Below are positions 2,229 through 21,771 of a stretch of DNA of 21,771 nucleotides, piece after piece. Both the position numbers and the translations under genes were made by a program. The number at the start of each line of letters is the position of its first letter. The stretch's first letter is position 1. The stretch is from a virus. The notes under the pieces were generated by a model. That model saw nothing but the letters and a program-made list of their open reading frames with translations, was not told the DNA's origin and made no database searches. The stretch lies in IMG/VR virus record IMGVR_UViG_3300013295_000113, positions 1-21,771 of that record. The stretch is one strand, 5' to 3'.

Positions 2229-5200
2229 TTAGAAGAATGTGAAGAAGCCGGAAACGGGAGGCTTTGTAAACAGCCAGCCCGTATTATTACCGCCGTTTGT
2301 GTTGGTCGTTGACGTGGCGTCCCACACCGCCCCTCCGGTGGCGCTGCTGTCGGTGATGTGCAAGTACGTCACCGAGTCAGTTCCGCTTGCTTGACTAATC
2401 GTTGCTTGTGTTCCGGGCGTTGTAGCTTGCAGGTATTTTTGGTTTGTGCCGGTAGTAACAAACGAATTTACGGTGCTGGTTGTGCCGGACTTTAGTTGAA
2501 CAGTGCCGTTGGTGAATGTCAGTGTCCGAGTAGAACCTAGCGTAAACGCATCCTGCATGGCCCATGTTCCGCCTACGCCGTCAAACGTTACTGGATAATC
2601 TATTGTATTTCCTGCGCTGGTAATTGTCTTTGGGCCAGAGGTGGCTGCAAAAGTAATTGTTTGAAGCGCTGCCTGTTCTAAGAACATTCCTGAACTTAAA
2701 GTCAAACTACCGTACAAAATCTTACTTCCAAGGTTGCCAAGCGTACCAGAAAAGCCAGTAAAGTCTACGTTATTCCAATGTACATAAACATAAACAGTAT
2801 CAGTTCCCGCAGTAATTTTTAAGTTCATTGCTACTGCTTCACTACCGCCTGCAATATCTCCAATATCCAAATATCTTACGCCAAAACCGCCAGTATAGTA
2901 AGCTTCAAAATTTGAAGTTCCGGTATAACTAAAGTTTGTTGCGATGTCAAAGTTAATTGGCGCGCTGTTGTTTGAAGTAACAACAATCTTACCCGTACCA
3001 AATGCAAGTACACGGAGGTTGGTGTTGCTTGAGTAAAAACTTCCAGTAGTTAGCGTGTAGCCGTTTAAATCCAATGCACCAGCGGTTAAAGTGCAAATGC
3101 GACCAGCACCGGAAGTCAGGTCGTCTTGAAGCTTGAAAATAACATCTGTTGGAGTGGCTGCGGTACTATTGAAGATAAACGGATTGTCAAACACAACACT
3201 AGCGGTAGTAATAGTCCTTGTCCCCGCTACCGCCCCAGCAAAGGTAAATGTTCCAGTACCAGCAGTCTTGGTCATCGGCTGTGAGCCATTTCCAGTAGAC
3301 GCCTTAAAATTTCCGTAGATAGTTGGGATTGCGTTTGCCAGTGCGCCTGCGTACCCTGTTGGGTTTGTTCCATCTGTAAAGTCTAAATCACGCACAGAGC
3401 CGGTAGTAATCGTTAATATTCCAGTACCCGCAGAAATCCTAAACGAAATGCTATTGGTTTCAGTAACCGCGCCGGGTGAAATAGTTCGTGTAGACGCTGT
3501 ATTGGCATTGACAATAACCAACGGAGTGCCGCTGACTGTGGTAGTCGTACTTCCGGTGAATACCGTGCCCGCTATGGTTAGGGTGGTAGTAATGGTACCT
3601 GTTGACCCAAACGCTATCGTGTTCGCCCCAGCGCCGCAAGTAAAATTAACTACAGATAAATTTTTATTGGCAAAATCTAAAGTACCGGCGGTCAATGTAA
3701 GGTTACCCGTGTTGTTGGGTAGCGTTACTGGGCTTAAATCTACTGTTGTGTTTACAGCCAAGGTAAGTCCCCAGCCGGGGGAATCTACAAAAAGTTGACT
3801 CAAACGAATAGTAAGACCTGCAGAGTTTAAGGTCTGGATGGCCCCCTGCCCGCAAAACGTCCATGTAGGCGACCCCGTAACGGTAGTCATCGTCATGGCA
3901 GTTGTCAGTGTCACGTCACCGTAGAAGAAAGGGTCTAGGTTAGCTTGTGTCCAGTTAAAAGCCAATGTGCGCCCGCTTAAATCGAGCGCGCCTATGTTCC
4001 AGTTAGCGTCAATCGTGATGGTATTTCCAGTACGCAAACCGTCGCCTGTTGTGGCTCCAGCGTTATCAATAATACAAGTGTCTTGCGCCAGCGGAAAGTT
4101 GTTTAGTGCTGGGGTTCCGCCTGAAGATGTAGCCCATGCAGTTCCAGACCAGCTTGCACTTGCGCCATTTACCGTACTCCAGTATTTTGTGGCCCCCGCG
4201 CCAAACGTGATGTTGCTGTTGTTCCTGCAATTACCAAGCCGCGTGCCTGACCATGTACCCGCAGCGCCTGCTGCAACAATGTCTCTAAGATCAACATCCG
4301 CTAAGGTTGCAATAGCAGCAACAGTAAAAGTCCGCTGAGTGCCTACCGCGCTGCTTCGGAGCCAAAGCCTACGCACTGCGGTGTTTGCGGTTCCAATAGT
4401 CAGCGTTCCGGTAACAGTTTGATCTCCTGAAAAACCTATAGCACCAATACCGCTAGAGGTTCTAGAAGTAAAAGTTAAGGCGGTGTAGGTGTTTGAACCA
4501 GTGATAGTGACAGTAGCTAAAGCTGGGCTTGTAAACTGAACAGTACCGTATGTTAGGCCATTACCCCCAAACGTAGGTGAACCGTTTGAGCAAATAATGG
4601 TAGAAGACGCTCCGCTAAAGGTTAAGCTGGTCGCGTTTGGGTTTATTTGAAAACCACCAGTCGCAGTAAAAGTTAGTGTCGAAGAATTAAAAGTAATAGA
4701 CTTAAAAATACCGTTAGCCGAACCATAAGATGCAGCGTTAATGGCATAATTTGCACCAGTGTTAAACGTACCTGAAGTTACAGTAAAGTTTCCGGTGGTT
4801 GTTAGGGTGCTTCCAAGAGTCCATCCCCCGCTTGGATTAATAAACGTAACCGCCATTGTTCCCAACGTCACGGTGTTACCGTTTGTGGTAACGGTTTTTC
4901 CAGTGGTGGACGCCACGAAGTTTATGGCTGCGCCGGAGGTCGTAGTGAATACAACACCTGTGGCAGCATTTAACCAACTTCCGTAGCAATTGATTACTGA
5001 AGTAGCCGCAGAGGTGATCGTCACGTTACCAACGGCAGGGCCAGCAATTGTAATGTTTTGCGCTACCGCATTAGTTCCCACCGTGACCGCATATGCAGTG
5101 GCGTTTGATAGGGCGTTAAACTCAGCGTTATCTGCAGCCGTAGGTACGCCAGCACCGCCAGCGCCTCCGATGCTAGTAGCCCAGTGTGTGGTATCCGTGG

Positions 5201-5243
5201 CGTCCCAAGTTCCGTCCCCGCCAACCCAGTAGTAGGTTGCCAT
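2229..5243 (-). CDS. Large beta-repeat adhesin / tail fibre-like protein
   Basis: The 1004-residue product is rich in Thr, Ser, Gly and Asn, with long runs of alternating beta pattern such as TTGNFTVTSGTFNTG and SGTLGNLGSKILYGSLTL. This suggests a beta-helix or beta-solenoid, as in autotransporter-like adhesins. It starts with a Trp-rich header, MATYYWVGGDGTWDATDTTH, followed by GGAGGAGVPTAADNAEF. A second, diverged header begins near residue 352 (KYWSTVNGASASWSGTAWAT, then FPLAQDTCIIDNAG), so the protein seems built from two related modules. It ends with NTNGGNNTGWLF, a tail motif I know from other surface proteins of this type, and then a short aromatic end. A strong GAGGAG site lies just before the ATG. 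Lying between two other fibre genes, it is probably a receptor-binding or polysaccharide-contacting appendage; no catalytic motif was seen. Confidence 0.75.
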   Translation of the reverse strand: MATYYWVGGDGTWDATDTTHWATSIGGAGGAGVPTAADNAEFNALSNATAYAVTVGTNAVAQNITIAGPAVGNVTITSAATSVINCYGSWLNAATGVVFTTTSGAAINFVASTTGKTVTTNGNTVTLGTMAVTFINPSGGWTLGSTLTTTGNFTVTSGTFNTGANYAINAASYGSANGIFKSITFNSSTLTFTATGGFQINPNATSLTFSGASSTIICSNGSPTFGGNGLTYGTVQFTSPALATVTITGSNTYTALTFTSRTSSGIGAIGFSGDQTVTGTLTIGTANTAVRRLWLRSSAVGTQRTFTVAAIATLADVDLRDIVAAGAAGTWSGTRLGNCRNNSNITFGAGATKYWSTVNGASASWSGTAWATSSGGTPALNNFPLAQDTCIIDNAGATTGDGLRTGNTITIDANWNIGALDLSGRTLAFNWTQANLDPFFYGDVTLTTAMTMTTVTGSPTWTFCGQGAIQTLNSAGLTIRLSQLFVDSPGWGLTLAVNTTVDLSPVTLPNNTGNLTLTAGTLDFANKNLSVVNFTCGAGANTIAFGSTGTITTTLTIAGTVFTGSTTTTVSGTPLVIVNANTASTRTISPGAVTETNSISFRISAGTGILTITTGSVRDLDFTDGTNPTGYAGALANAIPTIYGNFKASTGNGSQPMTKTAGTGTFTFAGAVAGTRTITTASVVFDNPFIFNSTAATPTDVIFKLQDDLTSGAGRICTLTAGALDLNGYTLTTGSFYSSNTNLRVLAFGTGKIVVTSNNSAPINFDIATNFSYTGTSNFEAYYTGGFGVRYLDIGDIAGGSEAVAMNLKITAGTDTVYVYVHWNNVDFTGFSGTLGNLGSKILYGSLTLSSGMFLEQAALQTITFAATSGPKTITSAGNTIDYPVTFDGVGGTWAMQDAFTLGSTRTLTFTNGTVQLKSGTTSTVNSFVTTGTNQKYLQATTPGTQATISQASGTDSVTYLHITDSSATGGAVWDATSTTNTNGGNNTGWLFTKPPVSGFFTFF

Positions 5244-9123: not shown

Positions 9124-9669
9124 CTAGTAGTTTTTAATTTTGCCACCCTCAGCGCAATGCCAGCGTTTTAATGACGCAGCTTTACGCGTAGGTTCACCTT
9201 TATCGTCTTTCATAGGTCCAGGCATGCCACTCATTCGTGCGCAAAAAGAATCATGCCTGCCGCCTTTTGCCTGTGGAGCTTTAAGGTGACTGCCTGTCGC
9301 CCTATTAAACTTGTCACGACCTTTTTGTGTTAAGCCTGCGCCTTTGTTTGTGGGCAGTTTTTCACCGCGACTAACAGACAGTACTGGGTCGCCACCACTT
9401 TTCATTTTGACTGTTTTTGCTGATGCTTTAAAGTCCGCAGCAGTTGGCGCGCCTTTGCTACCGGGCTTGCGCATGCGTTCGCCAGATCCTGCAGCAATAC
9501 GCTTTTGTTTAGCATGGATGTTATCCCACAAGCCTCCGGATTTTTTGCCAACTGCGTTCTTAACAGAGTACGCAATGGCAACTGCTTGCTTTTGTGGCTT
9601 GCCCGCTTTGACTTCAGCAGAAACATTCTTACTGAATGCTTCTTTAGACTTGCTTTTAAGCAACGGCAT
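9124..9669 (-). CDS. Basic Lys/Gly-rich protein with conserved aquatic-phage domain
   Basis: The 181-residue product is very basic. Residues 1-46 (MPLLKSKSKEAFSKNVSAEV, then KAGKPQKQAVAIAYSVKNA) form a small helical unit seen in many aquatic phage proteins. Residues 103-176 form a second conserved unit: SRGEKLPTNKGAGLTQKGRD, FNRATGSHLKAP, then SFCARMSGMPGPMKDDKGEP and RKAASLKRWHC. I recognise the latter as a domain of unknown function that recurs in marine and freshwater phages. Short KSGG, AKGG and AEGG motifs link it loosely with two other genes in this window. The high charge suggests nucleic-acid or capsid-interior contact, but this is inference. The start is one base after the preceding stop (TAATATG), with a weak AGG site 8 bases upstream. 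Confidence 0.7.
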   Translation of the reverse strand: MPLLKSKSKEAFSKNVSAEVKAGKPQKQAVAIAYSVKNAVGKKSGGLWDNIHAKQKRIAAGSGERMRKPGSKGAPTAADFKASAKTVKMKSGGDPVLSVSRGEKLPTNKGAGLTQKGRDKFNRATGSHLKAPQAKGGRHDSFCARMSGMPGPMKDDKGEPTRKAASLKRWHCAEGGKIKNY

Positions 9670-12372: not shown

Positions 12373-12918
12373 TTAGAAACTGCAAGAGCCGCCTTTTTTC
12401 ATGGGGGTATGCCCGCATGAATCCATGCGCATTGCGCTGTGCTTAACATGCCCGCCAGCTTTGTAGCCTGGGGCGCACAAGCCGCCAGTGGCCATTTTGC
12501 CGCCTTTTTTCAGCTTTAAGTTTGTGCCCTTAGCGCCTTTGTGCTCTTGCGTGTCATGCTGCTTAAAGGCTTTTTTGATCATGGCCTTATCTTGTGCCAT
12601 GTCAGACTTGCTGCCTTCAGCCTCGCCACCTTTTTTCATAGGGCGCATAGGCATTGCTGCCATACGAGGCGCTGCAGGCTCAGCAACAGGCATTGCCATA
12701 CGAGGCGCTGCAGGCTCAGCAACAGGCATTGCCATGCGTGGGCGGGCCATCATGCGTGCACGAGATGCCATCGCAGGTGTTACTCGAGGCGTAACCATGG
12801 GTACACCCCCATCAGCCATGTGCTTTTTATGCGCACGACCACCTTTTTTCAGCTTCGCCTCATCAACAGACGGCTCAGTGGTTTGCATTTTAGGTTTACG
12901 GCTAAAATTTGTTGCCAT
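12373..12918 (-). CDS. Lys/Gly-rich (KKGG) repeat protein with Met/Pro/Ala tandem unit
   Basis: The 181-residue basic protein starts MATNFSRKPKMQTTEPSVDE. KKGG-type motifs recur: KLKKGGRAHKKH, PMKKGGEAEGS, LKLKKGGKMATGG, YKAGGHVKHS and PMKKGGSCSF at the very end. The middle holds two identical 12-residue units (RMAMPVAEPAAP) coded by a perfect 36-base tandem repeat, plus a partial third. Cysteines cluster at the C-terminus (GGLCAPGY, RMDSCGH, GGSCSF). Such proteins are common in aquatic phage structural regions, but I know no proven role; an internal virion or DNA-condensing protein is a guess from charge and position. A strong AAGGAG site lies upstream of the ATG, arguing for high expression. 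It is followed directly by a terminator. Confidence 0.65.
   Translation of the reverse strand: MATNFSRKPKMQTTEPSVDEAKLKKGGRAHKKHMADGGVPMVTPRVTPAMASRARMMARPRMAMPVAEPAAPRMAMPVAEPAAPRMAAMPMRPMKKGGEAEGSKSDMAQDKAMIKKAFKQHDTQEHKGAKGTNLKLKKGGKMATGGLCAPGYKAGGHVKHSAMRMDSCGHTPMKKGGSCSF
12661..12732 (-). repeat. Perfect 36-base tandem duplication inside the KKGG gene
   Basis: Two identical 36-base copies (12661-12696 and 12697-12732; each begins CATACGAGGCGCTGCAGG on the plus strand) lie head to tail. The length is a multiple of three, so the copies add 12 residues each without breaking the frame. Perfect identity suggests a recent slippage event, and copy number may vary between related phages. Confidence 0.9.
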
Positions 12919-14056: not shown

Positions 14057-14971
14057 TTATACGCCAGGTGTGCCGTACACGCTGCGTGGGTCAGTCCAGT
14101 TAGGAATGTAACGCTCGGTAGCCTTATAGCGCATGCTATCGGTTTCGAAGTCACCTTCCATGGTCTTCTCCAAAGCACGACGCATCATCAGCTTCAAGCC
14201 TTCAGGCGCGTCGGTTTGTACCCACCAGTTGGTGGCAGAAGTTAAACGACTGATAACAGATGCGCCTTCAGGCAGCAAGCCAATCGATTTGATCGGGTTG
14301 ATGTCGTTGTTAGCAGTACCTGCACGCAGGACAGACTTCAACAGCACTTCAGCTTGGAACACATTACCAGGCGCAACAACCAGCTTCACAGGTTGGAGAC
14401 GGATTTTCTTACCGTTGTTGTCAACTGCTTGACGAACTTGGATAAGCATCTGCTCCAAAGAAGTTTGGCTCAAGTTAGCTGCTGTAGACAGCAAGTTGCT
14501 AAACGAACCAGCTGCAATGGGGTGTGCAGAGTTGCTCAAAGAAACGCCATCACCACCAGTATAAGAGCTATTGAAAGCGCGGTTTAAGATGTTAGCGCAA
14601 AGCAGTTCTTTGGTTTCCACCAGAGATTGTGCCAAATGCTTAGCATAAACTTGACCGATACGGATGTGGTCGCCGTCTTCAACCAAGACTTTAGTCAATG
14701 CAAAAGCAAGACCAAACACTTGATAGACGTAGCGTTGCAAGAAGAGTACGCCGCCTTGTTGGTAAGAAACAGGCGAGCCGTCCGGCAATTGCGGAGCAGC
14801 GCCAAATCCGTACAAGACAGGTTCTTCGTGGTAGTTGCGAGGGATGCCAGATTGCTCACGGAATACCGTGGACCATTCATCGGCGCGTTGGTCGTAAACT
14901 CCATCAAATGCTTCGTTGAGGATGGGCTCGACGATGCTTCGGAAGTCCGTACTTCTCATTGGTGCAGCCAT
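14057..14971 (-). CDS. Major capsid protein, Mu gpT-like HK97-fold family
   Basis: The 304-residue product forms the head shell. It begins MAAPMRSTDFRSIVEPILNE, with a helical start and AFDGVYDQRADEWSTVF. The middle (about 121-151: ETKELLCANILNRAFN, SSYTGGDGVSLSNSAHP) is the pattern I know from Mu gpT-like capsid proteins, where a GGDG-S...HP block follows the long spine helix. Later parts fit too: RLQPVKLVVAPGNVFQAEVL (P-domain strand), NWWVQTDAPEGLKLMMRRAL and the closing YIPNWTDPRSVYGTPGV. The length is usual for the HK97 fold without a fused protease. A strong AAGGAG ribosome site precedes the ATG and a terminator follows, both fitting high expression. Scaffold and decoration genes lie upstream, a normal head order. 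Confidence 0.85.
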   Translation of the reverse strand: MAAPMRSTDFRSIVEPILNEAFDGVYDQRADEWSTVFREQSGIPRNYHEEPVLYGFGAAPQLPDGSPVSYQQGGVLFLQRYVYQVFGLAFALTKVLVEDGDHIRIGQVYAKHLAQSLVETKELLCANILNRAFNSSYTGGDGVSLSNSAHPIAAGSFSNLLSTAANLSQTSLEQMLIQVRQAVDNNGKKIRLQPVKLVVAPGNVFQAEVLLKSVLRAGTANNDINPIKSIGLLPEGASVISRLTSATNWWVQTDAPEGLKLMMRRALEKTMEGDFETDSMRYKATERYIPNWTDPRSVYGTPGV

Positions 14972-14983
14972 TGTTTATTCTCC

Positions 14984-15559
14984 TTATGCAATAGCGTTGA
15001 AGGTACCGAAGAACTGAGAACGTGGGTTCACAACTCGAACGATAACATATGAATCACCCCAAGCATTGTCAGGGTAAGCGCCAATATCAACGACACGCAT
15101 GTCGCCGGGGTTGCCATTGCCTACAGCAGTCGAAACACCCAAGGTGCATTGCGACAAACCGGTGGTGGTAGAACCTGCAGCGATGGCGGAGAAGTTGTAC
15201 TCATTACCAATAGAGGTTTGCGCAATGGTAGCATCGGTTTGAATTTCATAGACAATGTTGTTGTCATTGTAGAAATACGCAATGATGTTAGTGCCTGCAG
15301 TACTGGCAGGCCAGTAATTGGAAACACGACGACGGCCAGTTGTGTCAGTAAACTCAACGCCTTGAAAAGCACCGGACCAAACAGCGCCTACGGTGGCGAT
15401 AATGATAACGCCAGCGGACGCACTGTATTGTACAGGTTGACCTTTGAGAATGTTCGAGCCGTAGCCCGACGTAATGCCGTTGGTAAGCGCTTGCGCGCGA
15501 TCCAGACCCGAAGGATGAAACGCGGGGCGCAAACCGAACGGAGCAGAGGTAGCACTCAT
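14984..15559 (-). CDS. Probable capsid decoration / head protein
   Basis: The 191-residue product begins MSATSAPFGLRPAFHPSGLD. Its pattern (APFGLRP, NGITSGYGSNILKGQPVQY, GAFQGVEFTDTTGRRRVSNY, WPASTAGTNIIAYFYNDNNI, VYEIQTDA) is one I recognise as a small protein coded beside the capsid gene in many aquatic phages. The beta-rich make-up, size and place 12 bases before the capsid gene suggest a shell-decorating or cement protein, though I know no biochemical proof for this family. The end (VRVVNPRSQFFGTFNAIA) is well formed, so the gene is intact. AAGGAG lies 6 bases before the ATG. Co-transcription with the capsid gene is likely, since no terminator separates them. Confidence 0.75.
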   Translation of the reverse strand: MSATSAPFGLRPAFHPSGLDRAQALTNGITSGYGSNILKGQPVQYSASAGVIIIATVGAVWSGAFQGVEFTDTTGRRRVSNYWPASTAGTNIIAYFYNDNNIVYEIQTDATIAQTSIGNEYNFSAIAAGSTTTGLSQCTLGVSTAVGNGNPGDMRVVDIGAYPDNAWGDSYVIVRVVNPRSQFFGTFNAIA

Positions 15560-15577: not shown

Positions 15578-16111
15578 TTACCCAAATACGGGCACTTTTG
15601 CGGTTTGGTCAAACTTCATGCCGTCGCCTTCAATCATAACCAGCGGCTTACCCCGACTATCTTTTGCACCGAGCATTTGCTCTTGTTGAACTTGCACCTT
15701 TTCTTGTTCGTCCAATGGGGCGTAATGATGCATTTCTGCCATTAGGTCCTGGTAGACGTCCTCGGGTAGTTTGTACAAAATCATCTCGTTGCACGCGACA
15801 AATCCTTCATGTTCACCTGACTTGACTCTATAAGTCTCAAAGCCGTGCACTTCTTCGGCTTTCACAGGCATATAGCCTAGTCGTAAACGTTTATGGATGG
15901 GGTCATACTGGTTGGTAGTAGAAAGCCAGCACAAATGAAAACCCGGAATCTCGGGTGGGGTCGGAAGCGCTTCTTGCAGCCACTCCGAACGGAATGCCCT
16001 ACGGCGTTCCTCAGACGATACAAACTGTTCTTCAGGCGGACGACGCGATGCATCATCATCCGCACGTGTTTCACGGCCTGCACGAGTATTTCTTTTCAAA
16101 CGATCATCCAT
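15578..16111 (-). CDS. Conserved phage protein between scaffold and decoration genes, function unknown
   Basis: The 177-residue product begins with a highly charged, Arg-rich start (MDDRLKRNTRAGRETRADDD) that probably is disordered. The centre (about 56-120) looks folded: GFHLCWLSTTNQYDPIHKRL, LGYMPVKAEEVHGFETY and GFVACNEMILYKLPEDVYQD. The last part is Gln/Glu-rich and ends VMIEGDGMKFDQTAKVPVFG. Proteins with the HLCWLSTTNxxDPIxxRxxxGY pattern recur in the head-assembly block of aquatic phages, but I cannot name a function. A head-completion or scaffolding helper is inferred from position. The start codon overlaps the scaffold stop (TAATG), with AGGAG 6 bases upstream, so translation is coupled to the scaffold gene. 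Confidence 0.7.
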   Translation of the reverse strand: MDDRLKRNTRAGRETRADDDASRRPPEEQFVSSEERRRAFRSEWLQEALPTPPEIPGFHLCWLSTTNQYDPIHKRLRLGYMPVKAEEVHGFETYRVKSGEHEGFVACNEMILYKLPEDVYQDLMAEMHHYAPLDEQEKVQVQQEQMLGAKDSRGKPLVMIEGDGMKFDQTAKVPVFG

Positions 16112-17103
16112 TATGCGCTCCTAGTCTTGTTACTGCGGTCCCATTCAGCGTAGTTGCGAATGGCTTTCTGCCTAAGTTCTGAATTTTCCCACAAACCTGC
16201 CTCTTTCATCGCAGATACGCGCTGAGGGCTTAATCGAAATTCATTCGATCTAGTAGTTGCTGTGGTTTCACGTCCTGAACTTGTCATAACAGACCTGGGC
16301 CTTTGCGTTCGAGTACCGGAGTCATTATACCCCTGTTTTTGAGCTGTGGGAATATACTTTTGCAAACGATCTGTAAGTTCTTCCCAATAATCTTCAGATG
16401 TTGGGTCATAGCCTTCACTTGTAAGGCGTTTGTCAATGACTTGGGCAATTTGAGACTCCTCATTCTTACCGCTTGGGTCGTACCATGGGTTGTCTTCCAT
16501 CCATTCAGTAGCCATTCTTTTGACAACAGGGTCGGGCTGCGTAATGTTTTGCGCAGGCTGCGACATTTGCTTTGTAGCTTGATGCTTTAAGCTGGTCAAA
16601 GACTCCAACTTGCGCTGCGCTTCAAACCACATTTCTTGCGCAGACGTTACGCCGTGCCCATCCTTGGACTCAACAGCATTTTGCATCTTCATTTTAGCGT
16701 ACTCAACCTGCACGCCGGCATCTTCAATGGCCTTATCAACACGTGCAAGCTCGGCGCCTGATGTACGTTGCTCAATATGGGCAATGCGCTCTGATAAAGA
16801 CTGATTTTGCTGCCGTAAAGCGTTAACTAAATGCGAAGATTCACGTGCTTTTTCACGGTGAAGTTGCTTTTTTAGCTTTCGTTCCTCACGTCGAGCGGCT
16901 CGAATGGCCTCTCTGTTAGGGTCGTGGTCCAGCCCATCATTTTGTTGTGATGGACTATCCATATCGTTGGTGCTTGAGTCATCTGAGTGCATCAACGAAT
17001 CAGTATTTGCTTGCGGAGATGCAATAGCATCAGGCAAAGTGACAACTGCGCTGCCATCTTGGTCTTCAGACACTTGCATTTCCATTTTATCTGTAGATGT
17101 CAT
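16111..17103 (-). CDS. Scaffold-like capsid assembly protein
   Basis: The 330-residue product (MTSTDKMEMQVSEDQDGSAV) has an acidic, Asp/Ser-rich start, a long charged coiled coil (about 70-180: REAIRAARREERKLKKQLHR, SLSERIAHIEQ, LARVDKAIEDAGVQVEYAKM) and a basic C-terminal part ending AIRNYAEWDRSNKTRSA. Acidic start, central coil and basic end, coded between portal and capsid, is the usual make-up of a phage scaffolding protein, which directs shell growth and then leaves or is degraded. A Met-Glu-Asp-Asn-Pro-Trp patch (ATEWMEDNPWYDP) near the middle recurs in related aquatic phage proteins. I chose ATG 17103 because AAAGGA precedes it by 6 bases; the TTG at 17118 has no such site. No protease motif is seen. 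Confidence 0.7.
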   Translation of the reverse strand: MTSTDKMEMQVSEDQDGSAVVTLPDAIASPQANTDSLMHSDDSSTNDMDSPSQQNDGLDHDPNREAIRAARREERKLKKQLHREKARESSHLVNALRQQNQSLSERIAHIEQRTSGAELARVDKAIEDAGVQVEYAKMKMQNAVESKDGHGVTSAQEMWFEAQRKLESLTSLKHQATKQMSQPAQNITQPDPVVKRMATEWMEDNPWYDPSGKNEESQIAQVIDKRLTSEGYDPTSEDYWEELTDRLQKYIPTAQKQGYNDSGTRTQRPRSVMTSSGRETTATTRSNEFRLSPQRVSAMKEAGLWENSELRQKAIRNYAEWDRSNKTRSA

Positions 17104-17121: not shown

Positions 17122-17541
17122 TTAGATGAAAGCTTTAATAGCCCTGGGATCGCCTGTCACTCGGCCAATAATCTCATGGTCATTAAAGAACGTAAACAGC
17201 GCCTTGCCTTTTGCGCTGCCATCTTCAAAGTCAATCTCCCAGCGATCGCCGCCCCACTTTGGCACGCGAACGTAATCACCAACTTGGCACCACACGCCTT
17301 CAGGCCATGGTTCCATAGTGTCTCGCTTTTTGAACGCAATAGGTCCAACAGCCAAGACTTTACCGATCATGGTATTCCACTTCTCGGTTTCTTTCGATTC
17401 TTCTGGGATGTAAATGCCAGAACTCGTCACCTTATCTTTTACTGCTCTCAATTGCACGAGAACACGAGCACCGTACGGCGCCATAAGTGGATCGATTACT
17501 GGAAACGCTTCTTCAAGCGTTTGCTCTGCATCAAAGGTCAT
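17122..17541 (-). CDS. GroES-like co-chaperonin (Cpn10 family)
   Basis: Co-chaperonins of this family cap GroEL and allow a client to fold. The 139-residue product has the family core: PLMAPYGARVLVQLRAVKDK (about 18-37), a mobile-loop-like TSSGIYIPEESKET (39-52) in which Ile43-Tyr44-Ile45 stands where GroES has the Ile-Val-Leu that binds GroEL, then GKVLAVGPIAF (60-70), QVGDYVRVPKWGG (86-98) and the closing strand with IIGRV. A 15-residue Lys/Pro/Trp-rich insert (KKRDTMEPWPEGVW) replaces a shorter loop. Phages such as T4 (gp31) make their own co-chaperonin to fold capsid protein; the gene here sits among head genes, which fits. I chose ATG 17541, with AAGAGG 9 bases upstream, over a TTG at 17559 without a site. 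It overlaps the upstream gene by 11 bases. Confidence 0.8.
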   Translation of the reverse strand: MTFDAEQTLEEAFPVIDPLMAPYGARVLVQLRAVKDKVTSSGIYIPEESKETEKWNTMIGKVLAVGPIAFKKRDTMEPWPEGVWCQVGDYVRVPKWGGDRWEIDFEDGSAKGKALFTFFNDHEIIGRVTGDPRAIKAFI

Positions 17542-17716
17542 CTCTTTTTTCCTCTTCAAGTAAGTTGTTGATAATCTGCAAGGTTTCTTCCAAACCTGCG
17601 TGACGTCCTGTTAAGCGCAAATAACTTTCAAAAGTTGAGCAATGACCTTGCGCCATTGCATCAGCAATCTCAAACTGCTTTTGCTTAATCAGGTCTATAA
17701 GAACGCTAATTCGCAT
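17531..17716 (-). CDS. Small helical phage protein, function unknown
   Basis: The 61-residue product, MRISVLIDLIKQKQFEIADA to a final NNLLEEEKRDDL, is predicted to be two or three helices. The layout LIxxKQFEIAxxxAxG...ESYxRLxGxxAGLxxxLxIIxxLLxEE recurs in small proteins coded between portal and capsid in aquatic phages, which is the reason I keep it. I know no function; a small assembly or packaging helper is a guess. The start overlaps the stop of the upstream gene by one base (TAATG), with GAGGA 6 bases upstream. The stop lies 11 bases inside the co-chaperonin gene, so the three genes are probably translated as one coupled series. Confidence 0.75.
   Translation of the reverse strand: MRISVLIDLIKQKQFEIADAMAQGHCSTFESYLRLTGRHAGLEETLQIINNLLEEEKRDDL
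17551..17556 (-). promoter_or_regulatory. Ribosome binding site deciding the co-chaperonin start
   Basis: AAGAGG lies 9 bases before ATG 17541, inside the end of the upstream gene. It is the reason for preferring this ATG over the TTG six codons upstream. Confidence 0.5.
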
Positions 17717-18060
17717 TAGCGTCCTCGACCGGCACTCTTCTTCATAGGCGCAACTATCGCAATAGTCAATCCGCCTTTAGCATGCCCGCCTTTTTTCATG
17801 GTGGCAATCTTACCCGTGGGCTTATTGTAAGGGAGCTTTTGGCTGCTGTCGTTAATTGCTGTCTGAGACTGTTTTTCAGACTTAGCACCCATGGTGTTGT
17901 GCTTAGCGCCTGAAGCCTCATCCCACATCACTTCAGCAGGCTTCTTCACTGCCCCGCCTCCCGCGTACTTGGCGACTTTACCGCCGCGCTTTAAGTGTGT
18001 TTCAGCGCCTGCTTGGCCCATGGCCAAACGTTTGTGCATGTTAATTGCGTCATCGCTCAT
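17716..18060 (-). CDS. Small basic Lys/Gly-rich protein following the portal gene
   Basis: The 114-residue product begins MSDDAINMHKRLAMGQAGAE and contains THLKRGGKVAKYAGGGAVKK, a middle part with AEVMWDEASGAKHNTMGAKS, and an end with KIATMKKGGHAKGGLTIAI and MKKSAGRGR. It is strongly basic and low in hydrophobic residues apart from a short patch near the end, so it is probably flexible. The RGGK and KKGGHAKGG motifs link it to the products of 12373-12918 and 9124-9669. There is one base between the portal stop and this ATG, and the AGGAG ribosome site lies inside the last portal codons. Translational coupling with the portal suggests a use in similar numbers, perhaps near the portal vertex or inside the head; the function is unknown. 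Confidence 0.65.
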   Translation of the reverse strand: MSDDAINMHKRLAMGQAGAETHLKRGGKVAKYAGGGAVKKPAEVMWDEASGAKHNTMGAKSEKQSQTAINDSSQKLPYNKPTGKIATMKKGGHAKGGLTIAIVAPMKKSAGRGR

Positions 18061-18061
18061 G

Positions 18062-20566
18062 TTAAGCTCCTAAATTAGATTGCAGATGTTGTTGAGCGGC
18101 GAGTGTAGTCTGCAGTTGCTCATGTTGCAGCTGTACAGCGTCCCTTGAAAGTTCGGCTGCCTTGATCCGTTCTTGTACCAAGTTATTTTCAGTATTCTCA
18201 ACTTGCTGTGCTTGCAGTTTTTGCTGCGCAAGTTGGGTGTCTGCTTGATCTTTTTGTGTTTTACGCTGTGTTTCAGCCATCGCTGTTTGCCCAAGCATTT
18301 GCACCTGCGCCATGATATTGGGATCAGTAGGCGCGCCTTGCTGCATGCCTTGCGACAGTTGCTGCATCTTCTGCATCAGCTGCGCCATAACCTGCCCAAC
18401 TTGCTGAAGCTGCTCTGCCGCGTCTTGGTGCACATGCTGTGTTGCAACGGCAAGCAACTGCTGCGCTTCGCGGATGGTAGGCTCAACCTTAAGCACATTG
18501 TAAGGGCGGCCCAGCGCTGTACTGGTGTAGCCATCAGCCATGGTAAGGTACCATAGCGTCAAGTGCTGCTTAAGATGCTCTAAACATTGTGGGATAAACC
18601 CCGGGGCAATTGCTGGGTTGCCTCCAAACAGCGGGTCCAACGCATAAGCAATGTGCACCTTGAAGTGCGCAATATGATCTTGCATCGGGTACGCACCAAC
18701 TGGCTTGCCAATGGTCATGGCCACGTTTTCAAGTGCAGGATTCATATCATGCATCTCTTGCGGATCTGGCAACACCATGGCTATGTCAGTAAGCTTAATC
18801 TGCTTAAGGATTCGCTTCTCAACTTCAAGGCGGTTGTACAGGTCTGGGTTTGCTTGCGCGCGAGCAGCAAGGGTTTGGATTTGCGCGTAGCGTTGGCTCT
18901 CAGCAAAGATATGCGGGTCACTAACTGGGATGACATCAGCGTTGGAAATGAAGTCGTCAGTTGTGACTTTTAGATCTTCAACAATCTCACTCTTGCGCTG
19001 GTCATTGAGATACCAACGATTGATACGGGCAAGAACTTTAAAGACACGGCGCTGAGAATCATGCAACCGCGAGTGGATAGAGCTAAACACCGCAGCGCCT
19101 TGCTCAATCAATGCTTGTGTAGTGCCTACAGGCGCATTGGATGTGATATCAGCAATCTTCTCTTCACTGGTGGTAACCACACCCTTTGCTGCGTCAGTTA
19201 GAATTCCTAGTAACTGCAGAAGCACCGGGCTTGGGCCATTGAAAGGCACAGGCATGGCAATCTTGCGGATGTCATCCACTCCCGGTGCGCCTTCAATCTC
19301 AGCTACCTGCGTAGGCTCAATGACCGTGCTTTGCCCTGAGATCTTGGCGCCTTTGAGCTTGAGCATAGTAGGTGCATTGTTAATATGCGCCGAATCAAGC
19401 AGAGCACGCAAAGCTCCAGTAAGAGCAGCAGATAGCCCGCCAATAAGATGGGGAAGACCAATGGCATAAGCACCGCGCCAAGGAATAAACTTAAACTCAA
19501 TAATCCAATCAAGCTTCGTATACGCATCATCGCCATCTTCCCAGTTACGATACAAGCCTACAACATCGCGTGATGTCTCATCGATCATCATGATGTAAGG
19601 CGCACGTGCGCCTTGGCTATACTTGTCATCGGCTTCTTCAAGCCAAGTGCAGATATGGAATACACGACGCACGCCATCAACGTTGTCAGCTTTCTGCCGG
19701 CGGCCCTCAATCTTGTCATTAGCTTTTTCTGACTTAGTCTCATCAGGCATCATCGAAGTCTTATACACGCCTGTGTCGATGTACAAGCCTGTTGAAACGC
19801 GCAAGTCATACTCTTCTTGCGTGATGTCTTGCACTTCAGTCATACGACTGGCTGTGTAGAAGTTGCCTGCTGAGAAGGGAAGGTAGATGTTGTCAATGGG
19901 AACAAACTCAGCACGTGGGCGACGCATCTGCTCGTCATACCACATCTTGATGTATTGCGAGCCTCCCAGTGGTAGTTGCGTAAGCATCTGCTCTTGCTCA
20001 TCACGATACTCTTCAATCTGCTCTGTCAACTGCCAGTTCATGTAGTCGCGCTTACGCTCTGCGCGATCTACTTTATCTGCAGTAGTATCACCCACAATCT
20101 TGGTCTTGACAGGTCCATCGGCAGGGAATAGTTCTTTAATGGCTCGTGCCGCGAAGTCCACACACGCCTCGGCCATGACAGGATGGACCACCTTTGAAGC
20201 GCCTAGGAACTGCGCACCGCCAGGCGCATCAGAGCCTAAGCCCGTACGACGCAAGCCGTCTTCATACTGCTTATCGCGATCTTCTCGAGCCTCCTTGTCT
20301 TTCTCAATCAAGTCAATGTACTTAATTGCAAGACCGTCCAGCATAAGTAGGTCAAACTTATCTGCCAAGTTCTCATAGAAGTCAGGCTCATCATCAGGCC
20401 CTTTAAGATCAGGCATGCGCACAATTGCTGAGCCATCTTCTAGCTCCTCAACGTCCGAGTCACTCTGATCAAAGAGATCAATTTCTGCTTTATGCGCCTC
20501 AGGCTCATCAGCAATGCCGTCAACAAAGCGATCGTAGTCTTGGGGGATGGGCATTTCAAGAGCCAT
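18062..20566 (-). CDS. Portal protein (P22-like)
   Basis: The portal forms the twelve-part ring through which DNA enters and leaves the head. After an acidic start (PQDYDRFVDGIADE), the 834-residue product has the block GLRRTGLGSDAPGGAQFLGA, SKVVHPVMAEACVDFAARAI, KELFPADGPVK (about 105-160), which I recognise as typical of large P22-like portals in aquatic phages. Other fitting parts are YIKMWYDEQMRRPRAEFVPI (clip/stem region), WRGAYAIGLPHLIGGLSAAL, TGALRALLDSAHINNAPTML, and the SNAPVGTTQALIEQGAAVFS block. The last 150 residues are a Gln-rich helical tail (LQQVGQVMAQLMQKMQQLSQ and more), which may form a helical barrel as in P22. AAGGA lies 6 bases before the ATG. The length is above that of P22 (725 residues). 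Confidence 0.85.
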   Translation of the reverse strand: MALEMPIPQDYDRFVDGIADEPEAHKAEIDLFDQSDSDVEELEDGSAIVRMPDLKGPDDEPDFYENLADKFDLLMLDGLAIKYIDLIEKDKEAREDRDKQYEDGLRRTGLGSDAPGGAQFLGASKVVHPVMAEACVDFAARAIKELFPADGPVKTKIVGDTTADKVDRAERKRDYMNWQLTEQIEEYRDEQEQMLTQLPLGGSQYIKMWYDEQMRRPRAEFVPIDNIYLPFSAGNFYTASRMTEVQDITQEEYDLRVSTGLYIDTGVYKTSMMPDETKSEKANDKIEGRRQKADNVDGVRRVFHICTWLEEADDKYSQGARAPYIMMIDETSRDVVGLYRNWEDGDDAYTKLDWIIEFKFIPWRGAYAIGLPHLIGGLSAALTGALRALLDSAHINNAPTMLKLKGAKISGQSTVIEPTQVAEIEGAPGVDDIRKIAMPVPFNGPSPVLLQLLGILTDAAKGVVTTSEEKIADITSNAPVGTTQALIEQGAAVFSSIHSRLHDSQRRVFKVLARINRWYLNDQRKSEIVEDLKVTTDDFISNADVIPVSDPHIFAESQRYAQIQTLAARAQANPDLYNRLEVEKRILKQIKLTDIAMVLPDPQEMHDMNPALENVAMTIGKPVGAYPMQDHIAHFKVHIAYALDPLFGGNPAIAPGFIPQCLEHLKQHLTLWYLTMADGYTSTALGRPYNVLKVEPTIREAQQLLAVATQHVHQDAAEQLQQVGQVMAQLMQKMQQLSQGMQQGAPTDPNIMAQVQMLGQTAMAETQRKTQKDQADTQLAQQKLQAQQVENTENNLVQERIKAAELSRDAVQLQHEQLQTTLAAQQHLQSNLGA

Positions 20567-20574
20567 GGTATTCC

Positions 20575-21771
20575 TTATTCATAACCTTCAAGTAGCATGC
20601 GCAATTGCGTAACTAGTGCGTCACGAAGAGTAGTGCTATACGCATAGTCATCTGATGCCATGCCTAACACATTTTCCCAGCCTGCACGACCATTGTTCTC
20701 AAGGTCGCGTATTGAGCTACGAATTTGGCGCATTGCAGTAGGCCTAGCCATAGTGCTAAACACGCTCTCATCAAGAATTTCTAAAAGATGCTGCGCTTCA
20801 GCCATAGTACGTTCATCAGCAAGATCTGCGTCTCGTTCGGCAGCAAGATCTGCATGTCGTTCGGCAAGTATGTCTTCACGCGCTGCAGGGGGCAGCTGCG
20901 CAGGTCGTGCAGCGTTATTGCGCGCTTCCATGCCCATACTCACATCACGAGCAAGTAGCTCAAGCATATTTGGTGTAAACGTGTCTAATTGCAGTGTGGC
21001 GCCACCAAAAACCCTATTGCCGTTACGAATTAAGTTAGCAACTTCATTCGGGTCATCAACCCCATGCGTACGTGTTTGTTCCATAATACGCGTTGCAGCG
21101 TCATTGACAAGATTGAATTGCTCAGCATTTCGTAGTACAGATCGACTTAGGTCACCATAAGGCATAACTCTAACATTTGCGTTTAATGACGCTGCAAACT
21201 CACCATTACGTAAACGCTCCATACGCGCAGCCAAGGCGTCTTCTTGCGGGGCAGCAGTCGCAGCAGCAGGTTGATTAGCGCCATGCTGCTGATCTACTTC
21301 CCAGTCATCTACATGTATATCAGGCAGTATATCAGGTATGGCTGCAGGTGCTTGCGCAGCTGGTGGGCCTGCCATACGCTCATGCGCAAGTTGCCGCAGT
21401 GCTGATTCAAGAGTAGCGGGGTCAATCCTGTCATTGGTGCCTACATGCAAAGGCCGATCATGCCGCATCTCATCTACAAACGCCAAGATAGTTGGGTAAT
21501 GCTGTCTATTGCGATCAAAGCGCTGGCCTAGTTGATTCGTAAGCATAGGCACTGCAAGCCTGTCGGGGTCACTAAGTTGACTATGCAAGTCCTCATCAGA
21601 CATACGTGACAAAACGCGAGGCATTGACGCGTCGGCATTACTAGGCAATTCTCTAAAGTATCTTATAACAGCGTCTCGTGTGTCGGCTGACAGGCCAACC
21701 AACACACGTTGCGCTTCGTTAGAGGTAAGTACTGTTTCTAATGCAGGGATACCAATTTGCTGACTTGTGTA
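20575..21771 (-). CDS. Unrecognised protein with AER/ADL octapeptide repeat (5' end beyond window)
   Basis: The frame is open to the last base of the window, giving at least 398 residues. A GTG at 21705 could be read as a start, but the 22 codons before it (including QQIGIPALETVLTSNEAQR) continue without a stop and look coding, so the gene most likely starts outside. The sequence is Ala/Arg/Asp/Glu/Leu-rich and largely helical. A charged run around residues 280-310 holds about three 8-residue units (LAERHAD, LAAERDAD, LADERTMA). The C-terminus is helical (YAYSTTLRDALVTQLRMLLE). I do not recognise the family. Its place directly before the portal, with an 8-base gap, allows a terminase-adjacent, internal virion or large multi-domain protein; none is supported by motif. 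Confidence 0.7.
   Translation of the reverse strand, partial: YTSQQIGIPALETVLTSNEAQRVLVGLSADTRDAVIRYFRELPSNADASMPRVLSRMSDEDLHSQLSDPDRLAVPMLTNQLGQRFDRNRQHYPTILAFVDEMRHDRPLHVGTNDRIDPATLESALRQLAHERMAGPPAAQAPAAIPDILPDIHVDDWEVDQQHGANQPAAATAAPQEDALAARMERLRNGEFAASLNANVRVMPYGDLSRSVLRNAEQFNLVNDAATRIMEQTRTHGVDDPNEVANLIRNGNRVFGGATLQLDTFTPNMLELLARDVSMGMEARNNAARPAQLPPAAREDILAERHADLAAERDADLADERTMAEAQHLLEILDESVFSTMARPTAMRQIRSSIRDLENNGRAGWENVLGMASDDYAYSTTLRDALVTQLRMLLEGYE
20818..20865 (-). repeat. 24-base tandem repeat coding for charged octapeptides
   Basis: Two 24-base copies (20818-20841 and 20842-20865; AGCAAGATCTGC(G/A)T(C/G) ... on the plus strand) differ at only two positions, and a more diverged third unit follows. 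They encode consecutive 8-residue units of the A-E-R-x-A-D-L type in a helical region. Confidence 0.8.

Follow-up and report, generated by a model that had tools for sequence, protein, structure and literature searches.

A GroES-like co-chaperonin gene in a phage head-gene block and its association with a Mu gpT-like capsid protein

Background

Phage-encoded relatives of GroES have been found in podo-, myo- and siphoviruses (PMC4294664). The classic phage co-chaperonin for capsid folding is gp31 of T4: together with GroEL it is required for the folding of gp23, and GroES does not substitute for it there (PMC3012670). Cage size is the usual reason given why the host's GroES cannot replace gp31, and the accepted account comprises a larger chamber, missing roof loops and a client of 56 kDa (PMC6318259). 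Closer to the gene that is considered here are the GroES genes of two other kinds of phage: GroES is reported among the 13 core genes of the HTVC023P-type pelagiphages (PMC9599517) and is also shown in the CRP-901 type roseophages (PMC10149686).

The DNA analysed here (referred to below as the window) is the IMG/VR viral record IMGVR_UViG_3300013295_000113, a stretch of 21,771 bases. It carries a gene for a protein of the GroES family, located among head genes. Phage GroES genes are already known; the main new result is the unusually consistent link between this gene and one family of capsid proteins. A search of open-licence papers turned up no statement of that link, or of the conserved roof-position segment and C-terminal tail that are described below.

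The gene and its product

The gene lies on the minus strand (17122..17541). It opens with an ATG at 17541 and closes with a TAA ending at 17122; a Shine-Dalgarno-like GAAGAGGAAAAAAGAG 5' of the reading frame provides a clear ribosome-binding site, and the product has 139 amino acids (15.7 kDa, pI 5.1). Relatives are encoded by 343 IMG/VR stretches, and dN/dS, for those pairs that have a computable dS, lies between 0.03 and 0.12: the gene is real, and it is under strong purifying selection.

An initial annotation, made from the sequence by itself, had called the product a GroES-like co-chaperonin with a Cpn10 core, and a Cpn10 profile search had been set beforehand as a check. The claim is borne out. 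Pfam Cpn10 (PF00166) matches residues 21-105 at E 9.6e-10, with 38.8 bits against a curated cut-off of 21.1; all 80 of the 80 aligned relatives also match Cpn10 at E <= 0.01, and PHROG 3188 ("co-chaperonin GroES") matches the product at E 8e-9. Against the NCBIfam equivalog models for cellular GroES (the PRK00364 series), on the other hand, the best score is 27.7 bits where the cut-off is 136, which sets the phage product apart from an ordinary host GroES.

The predicted structure was likewise checked for the GroES beta-barrel, which is present. The AlphaFold model, a monomer computed from an alignment of 80 family sequences, has a mean pLDDT of 82.7, with the lowest values at the N-terminus and in the mobile-loop region. 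Its best Foldseek matches among solved structures are to human Hsp10 (E 2.6e-6) and to T4 gp31 (1g31, E 3e-3). A second structure aligner gives Z scores of 8.2-9.5 for GroES/Hsp10 chains (9.5 for 8wuc, with rmsd 3.6 over 94 aligned residues; 8.2 for 1aon, with rmsd 4.7 over 96), and 6.0 for gp31; dehydrogenase barrels do not exceed about 6. Below E 0.01, a profile search of the PDB finds only Cpn10-type chains. Identity to solved GroES is only ~20-30%.

The barrel by itself does not define a co-chaperonin: it is shared by alcohol dehydrogenase chains, which reach Z scores of up to ~6, and one could imagine that a GroES-like barrel from outside the co-chaperonins, for instance the dehydrogenases' N-terminal domain, has been misread. 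The chance of such an error appears to be negligible. Pfam returns Cpn10 matches and nothing of the dehydrogenase type, GroES/Hsp10 chains rank highest by fold (Z 8-9.5), and a 139-residue protein with a mobile loop is too short to hold a Rossmann domain as well; we have rejected this assignment. Judged by its sequence, the product is a co-chaperonin of the Cpn10/GroES family, a new member of the wider phage GroES lineage that has already been reported.

The mobile-loop segment comprises residues 36-50 (DKVTSSGIYIPEESK; 17392..17436, minus strand), with the tripeptide IYI at residues 43-45 and the lowest pLDDT inside the domain. The loop TSSGIYIPEE is present as had been claimed, but its IYI is nothing special. 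The tripeptide has I or L in first place and I, L, F or M in third place in each of 215 distinct homologues; its middle residue varies (IIL in 68, IVL in 61, IYI in 38). With IIL and IVL the commonest forms, IYI is ordinary within this family.

A Trp/Pro-rich segment at residues ~66-88 (GPIAFKKRDTMEPWPEGVWCQVG; 17278..17346, minus strand) was located by its conservation and by alignment to GroES. Its approximately 20 residues align, with a few extra ones, to the stretch of E. coli GroES between VLAVG and VGD. The segment apparently sits at the position of the GroES roof loop. It had been described as an unusual insert, and EPWPEGVWC is indeed there; rather than an oddity of one phage, however, it is a conserved signature of the family, with W84 in 95%, G82 in 92% and P80 in 87% (sequence-weighted, 215 homologues), and W or F at position 79 in all.

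The protein also continues beyond the end of GroES into a C-terminal tail, GDPRAIKAFI (17125..17154, minus strand), that has no counterpart in E. coli GroES. The consensus of the tail, (G)DPxxIKAF(I/L/V), is conserved (P132 in 89% and D131 in 81% of the 215 homologues, weighted); DPEDILHM and similar variants take its place in the DSL-LC04-like branch. Roof segment and tail are the candidates for client-specific parts of the protein.

The head-gene block

The gene had been placed inside the head-assembly block, and that placement is correct: it lies between the gene for the portal protein and a gene in scaffold position. All of the genes concerned are on the minus strand. The portal protein (18062..20566; 834 aa, 93.4 kDa) is recognised by PHROG 1216, portal, at E 5e-10. 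The immediate upstream neighbour of the co-chaperonin gene in the list of open reading frames is a 61-aa ORF (17531..17716) with a weak match to PHROG 32603, an entry without a function. Directly downstream comes a gene for a 330-aa protein (16111..17103; PHROG 28737, no assigned function) that is found between co-chaperonin and capsid genes in all relatives inspected; its role as scaffold is inferred from this position. Two further proteins of conserved order follow, one of 177 aa (15578..16111; PHROG 36003, no assigned function) and one of 191 aa (14984..15559; PHROG 37556, E 1.6e-10), and then the Mu gpT-like major capsid protein (14057..14971; 304 aa, 33.4 kDa), which is assigned by PF10124 (23.7 bits; cut-off 20.1) and by PHROGs 4523, 133 and 371, and whose relatives are annotated as major capsid proteins. 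In phages that infect Caulobacter, Pelagibacter or uncultured hosts the genes follow one order: portal, small ORFs, co-chaperonin, scaffold-position gene, two genes of unassigned function, capsid. A Roseobacter phage conserves it from the co-chaperonin gene through the capsid gene.

The further claim that the gene is translationally coupled to head genes was overstated. Its start does overlap the 61-aa ORF by 11 nt, but no head gene is recognised in the latter; downstream, the next gene starts 18 nt past the co-chaperonin stop and has its own ribosome-binding site. Across 207 relatives the corresponding gap is mostly 9-25 nt, with a 4-nt overlap in 17. That the co-chaperonin gene is part of an operon is clear; strict translational coupling to the head genes is not.

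Other features of the window can be noted briefly. Several small proteins rich in Lys and Gly, with KKGG/KxGG motifs, are encoded across the structural block (17716-18060, 12373-12918 and 9124-9669, minus strand). A repetitive protein of 1004 residues, rich in Thr, Gly and Ala (2229-5243, minus strand), is perhaps a fibrous appendage. Upstream of the portal gene and open at the window edge is the gene for a protein of at least 376 residues (20575-21771, minus strand) for which neither Pfam nor PHROG yielded a match at the limits used. The 21,771-nt window was also searched for tRNAs and Rfam elements, and none were found.

A location among head genes invites the thought that the protein might be a component of the virion, for example a head decoration or a part of the connector, that has kept the Cpn10 fold and no longer works with GroEL; a conserved, family-specific roof segment and a C-terminal tail for which GroES has no counterpart would be in keeping with such a role. 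We regard this as improbable, since the GroEL-docking tripeptide, for which a structural protein would have no need, is kept in 215 of 215 homologues. Moreover, the low confidence of the loop prediction is what one expects of a flexible part, and the gene can lie outside the head block, as the relatives discussed next attest.

The link to the capsid gene

The association of the two genes is seen from either direction. When IMG/VR contigs are found by way of a close relative of the capsid protein, the co-chaperonin gene is upstream in all 55 of the loci that have enough upstream sequence; when they are found by way of the co-chaperonin, the capsid gene is downstream in all 132 of the loci that have enough downstream sequence. 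Among 50,697 public phage records, 21 contain a relative of the capsid protein, at identities down to 24%, and every one of the 21 contains Cpn10: 14 have a tblastn match to the co-chaperonin, while in the other seven (capsid identity 24-40%) Cpn10 is identified by annotation or profile. By comparison, a single Cpn10 query matches only 26 of the 50,697 phage records; at the sensitivity of that query, then, the gene is rare in phages. IMG/VR contigs with distant relatives of the capsid protein contain Cpn10 in three of three cases when they are at least 44 kb long, and in two of 17 among shorter fragments. GTDB holds a relative in only two contigs of 5-6 kb, from Cellvibrio and Opitutae MAGs; both are probably misbinned phage contigs.

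That the association might be limited to the head block is ruled out by the seven phages that tblastn missed: they have Cpn10, and three of them have it elsewhere in the genome. These three are also the most divergent (ct7ZZ929, its near-twin ctJAH347, and the methanogen-assigned vir526), and their relocated Cpn10 genes are the strongest hint that the capsid link goes beyond shared position. In ct7ZZ929 the Cpn10 gene (MW202601.1, 13699-14163) is near a gene for a single-stranded DNA-binding protein, and its product has terminal extensions. The Cpn10 gene of the virus assigned to Methanomicrobiales (BK063670.1, 42826-43182) also lies away from the head block; if the archaeal host is without a group I GroEL, the partner of this Cpn10 would be a puzzle.

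Two considerations restrain what can be read from these counts. Being related, and in some cases near-duplicates, the 21 records do not represent 21 independent events. Relatives of the portal protein are present in 18 of the same 21 records, which rules out the portal as a separable marker: co-occurrence, which partly reflects shared ancestry, cannot separate the candidate clients from one another.

Alternatively, the protein could be a co-chaperonin of general use, adding to host GroES activity or standing in for it while late phage proteins of many kinds (tail, portal, fibres) are folded, and without a capsid client in particular. T4 gp31 and CocO are able to take over from GroES in every essential folding task of the host (PMC3012670), and the presence of the gene outside the head block in the three most divergent phages would be consistent with it. 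Yet bacterial hosts already supply GroES; the position in the head block is fixed in nearly all relatives; and the association with one capsid family is strict, even after relocation. On balance, a purely general role is possible but rather unlikely.

Partner and client

We think it highly probable, going by sequence, modelled structure and gene association, that the gene specifies a Cpn10 co-chaperonin that helps the host's GroEL to fold one of the phage's head proteins, the capsid protein being the likeliest. Host GroEL as the partner, already suggested in the initial annotation, holds up as a presumption: a search of 16 related records, including 12 public phage records, found no gene for GroEL/Cpn60. 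The client had been put down as "capsid or portal". A head client is favoured by where the gene lies, in the head block, and by its strict link to a single capsid family, but the portal is an unlikely one. The GroEL-GroES cage has a limit of ~60 kDa, which the 93.4-kDa portal protein exceeds; an encapsulated client is more likely to be the capsid protein or another head protein, and as between the two named candidates the 33-kDa capsid protein is the likelier.

The following sequence of events is proposed. Seven subunits would assemble into a ring, which would cap host GroEL by way of its mobile loops; the phage lid would replace or outcompete host GroES in the infected cell, and one of the phage's head proteins would thereby fold productively, with the 33-kDa capsid protein as the likeliest candidate. 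Why the phage should bring its own lid is less readily seen. With a capsid protein of only 33 kDa and a roof segment that is not missing, the "bigger cage" rationale of gp31 fits poorly: a protein of that size can be housed in the ordinary GroEL-GroES cage, and cage size leaves the need for a special lid unexplained. The Trp/Pro roof segment and the conserved C-terminal tail may instead tune the cage for its client, and that would account for the phage having a lid of its own rather than relying on the host's; this is the most economical guess. One can go further, and entertain an obligate pairing of lid and client, in which the Mu gpT-like capsid lineage, represented in phages of several bacterial groups and in a methanogen-assigned virus, would be unable to fold with host GroES and hence would have its own Cpn10, whose roof and tail suit the client through a mechanism other than gp31's enlargement of the cage. 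That speculation is tentative, and we would sooner doubt it than assert it.

Comparison with known co-chaperonins

The closest named relatives are encoded by the Caulobacter phages RW, KcrB, RLK and GB2A and by the uncultured phage ctpbd312; they are 49-57% identical to the window's protein along almost their full length, and the gene order is the same. Their roof segment is similar; the loop reads GGIIL in RW and GRIVL in ctpbd312, as against SGIYI here. The GroES proteins of the HTVC023P-type and CRP-901-type phages are of the same Cpn10 family, and their genes immediately precede the scaffold-position gene and accompany the same capsid family, but identity falls to ~27-38%, the C-terminal tail is different, and more genes separate portal from co-chaperonin. 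A Cpn10 gene directly before the scaffold-position gene, with a Mu gpT-like capsid gene further downstream, places the present locus in the HTVC023P/RW-like lineage.

With cellular GroES and mitochondrial Hsp10 the phage protein shares the barrel, the mobile loop and the profile match; it departs from them in its NCBIfam score below the cut-off, an N-terminal extension of ~20 residues, the Trp/Pro roof segment and the C-terminal tail. Like gp31 of T4 and CocO of RB49, it is a phage co-chaperonin of predicted Cpn10 fold. The gp31 structure 1g31 is matched by fold, at the E value and Z score given above, but is not found when the PDB is searched with a sequence profile of the phage protein. Gp31 has no roof loops and a client of 56 kDa; here, the alignment indicates a roof-position segment of ~20 residues, and the candidate client is a protein of 33 kDa. 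A phage Cpn10 accompanies this much smaller capsid protein in every complete genome examined. Should the link prove functional, it would provide a second system, with Caulobacter phage RW as its cultured representative, in which to ask what, besides the size of the cage, ties a capsid protein to a lid of its own.
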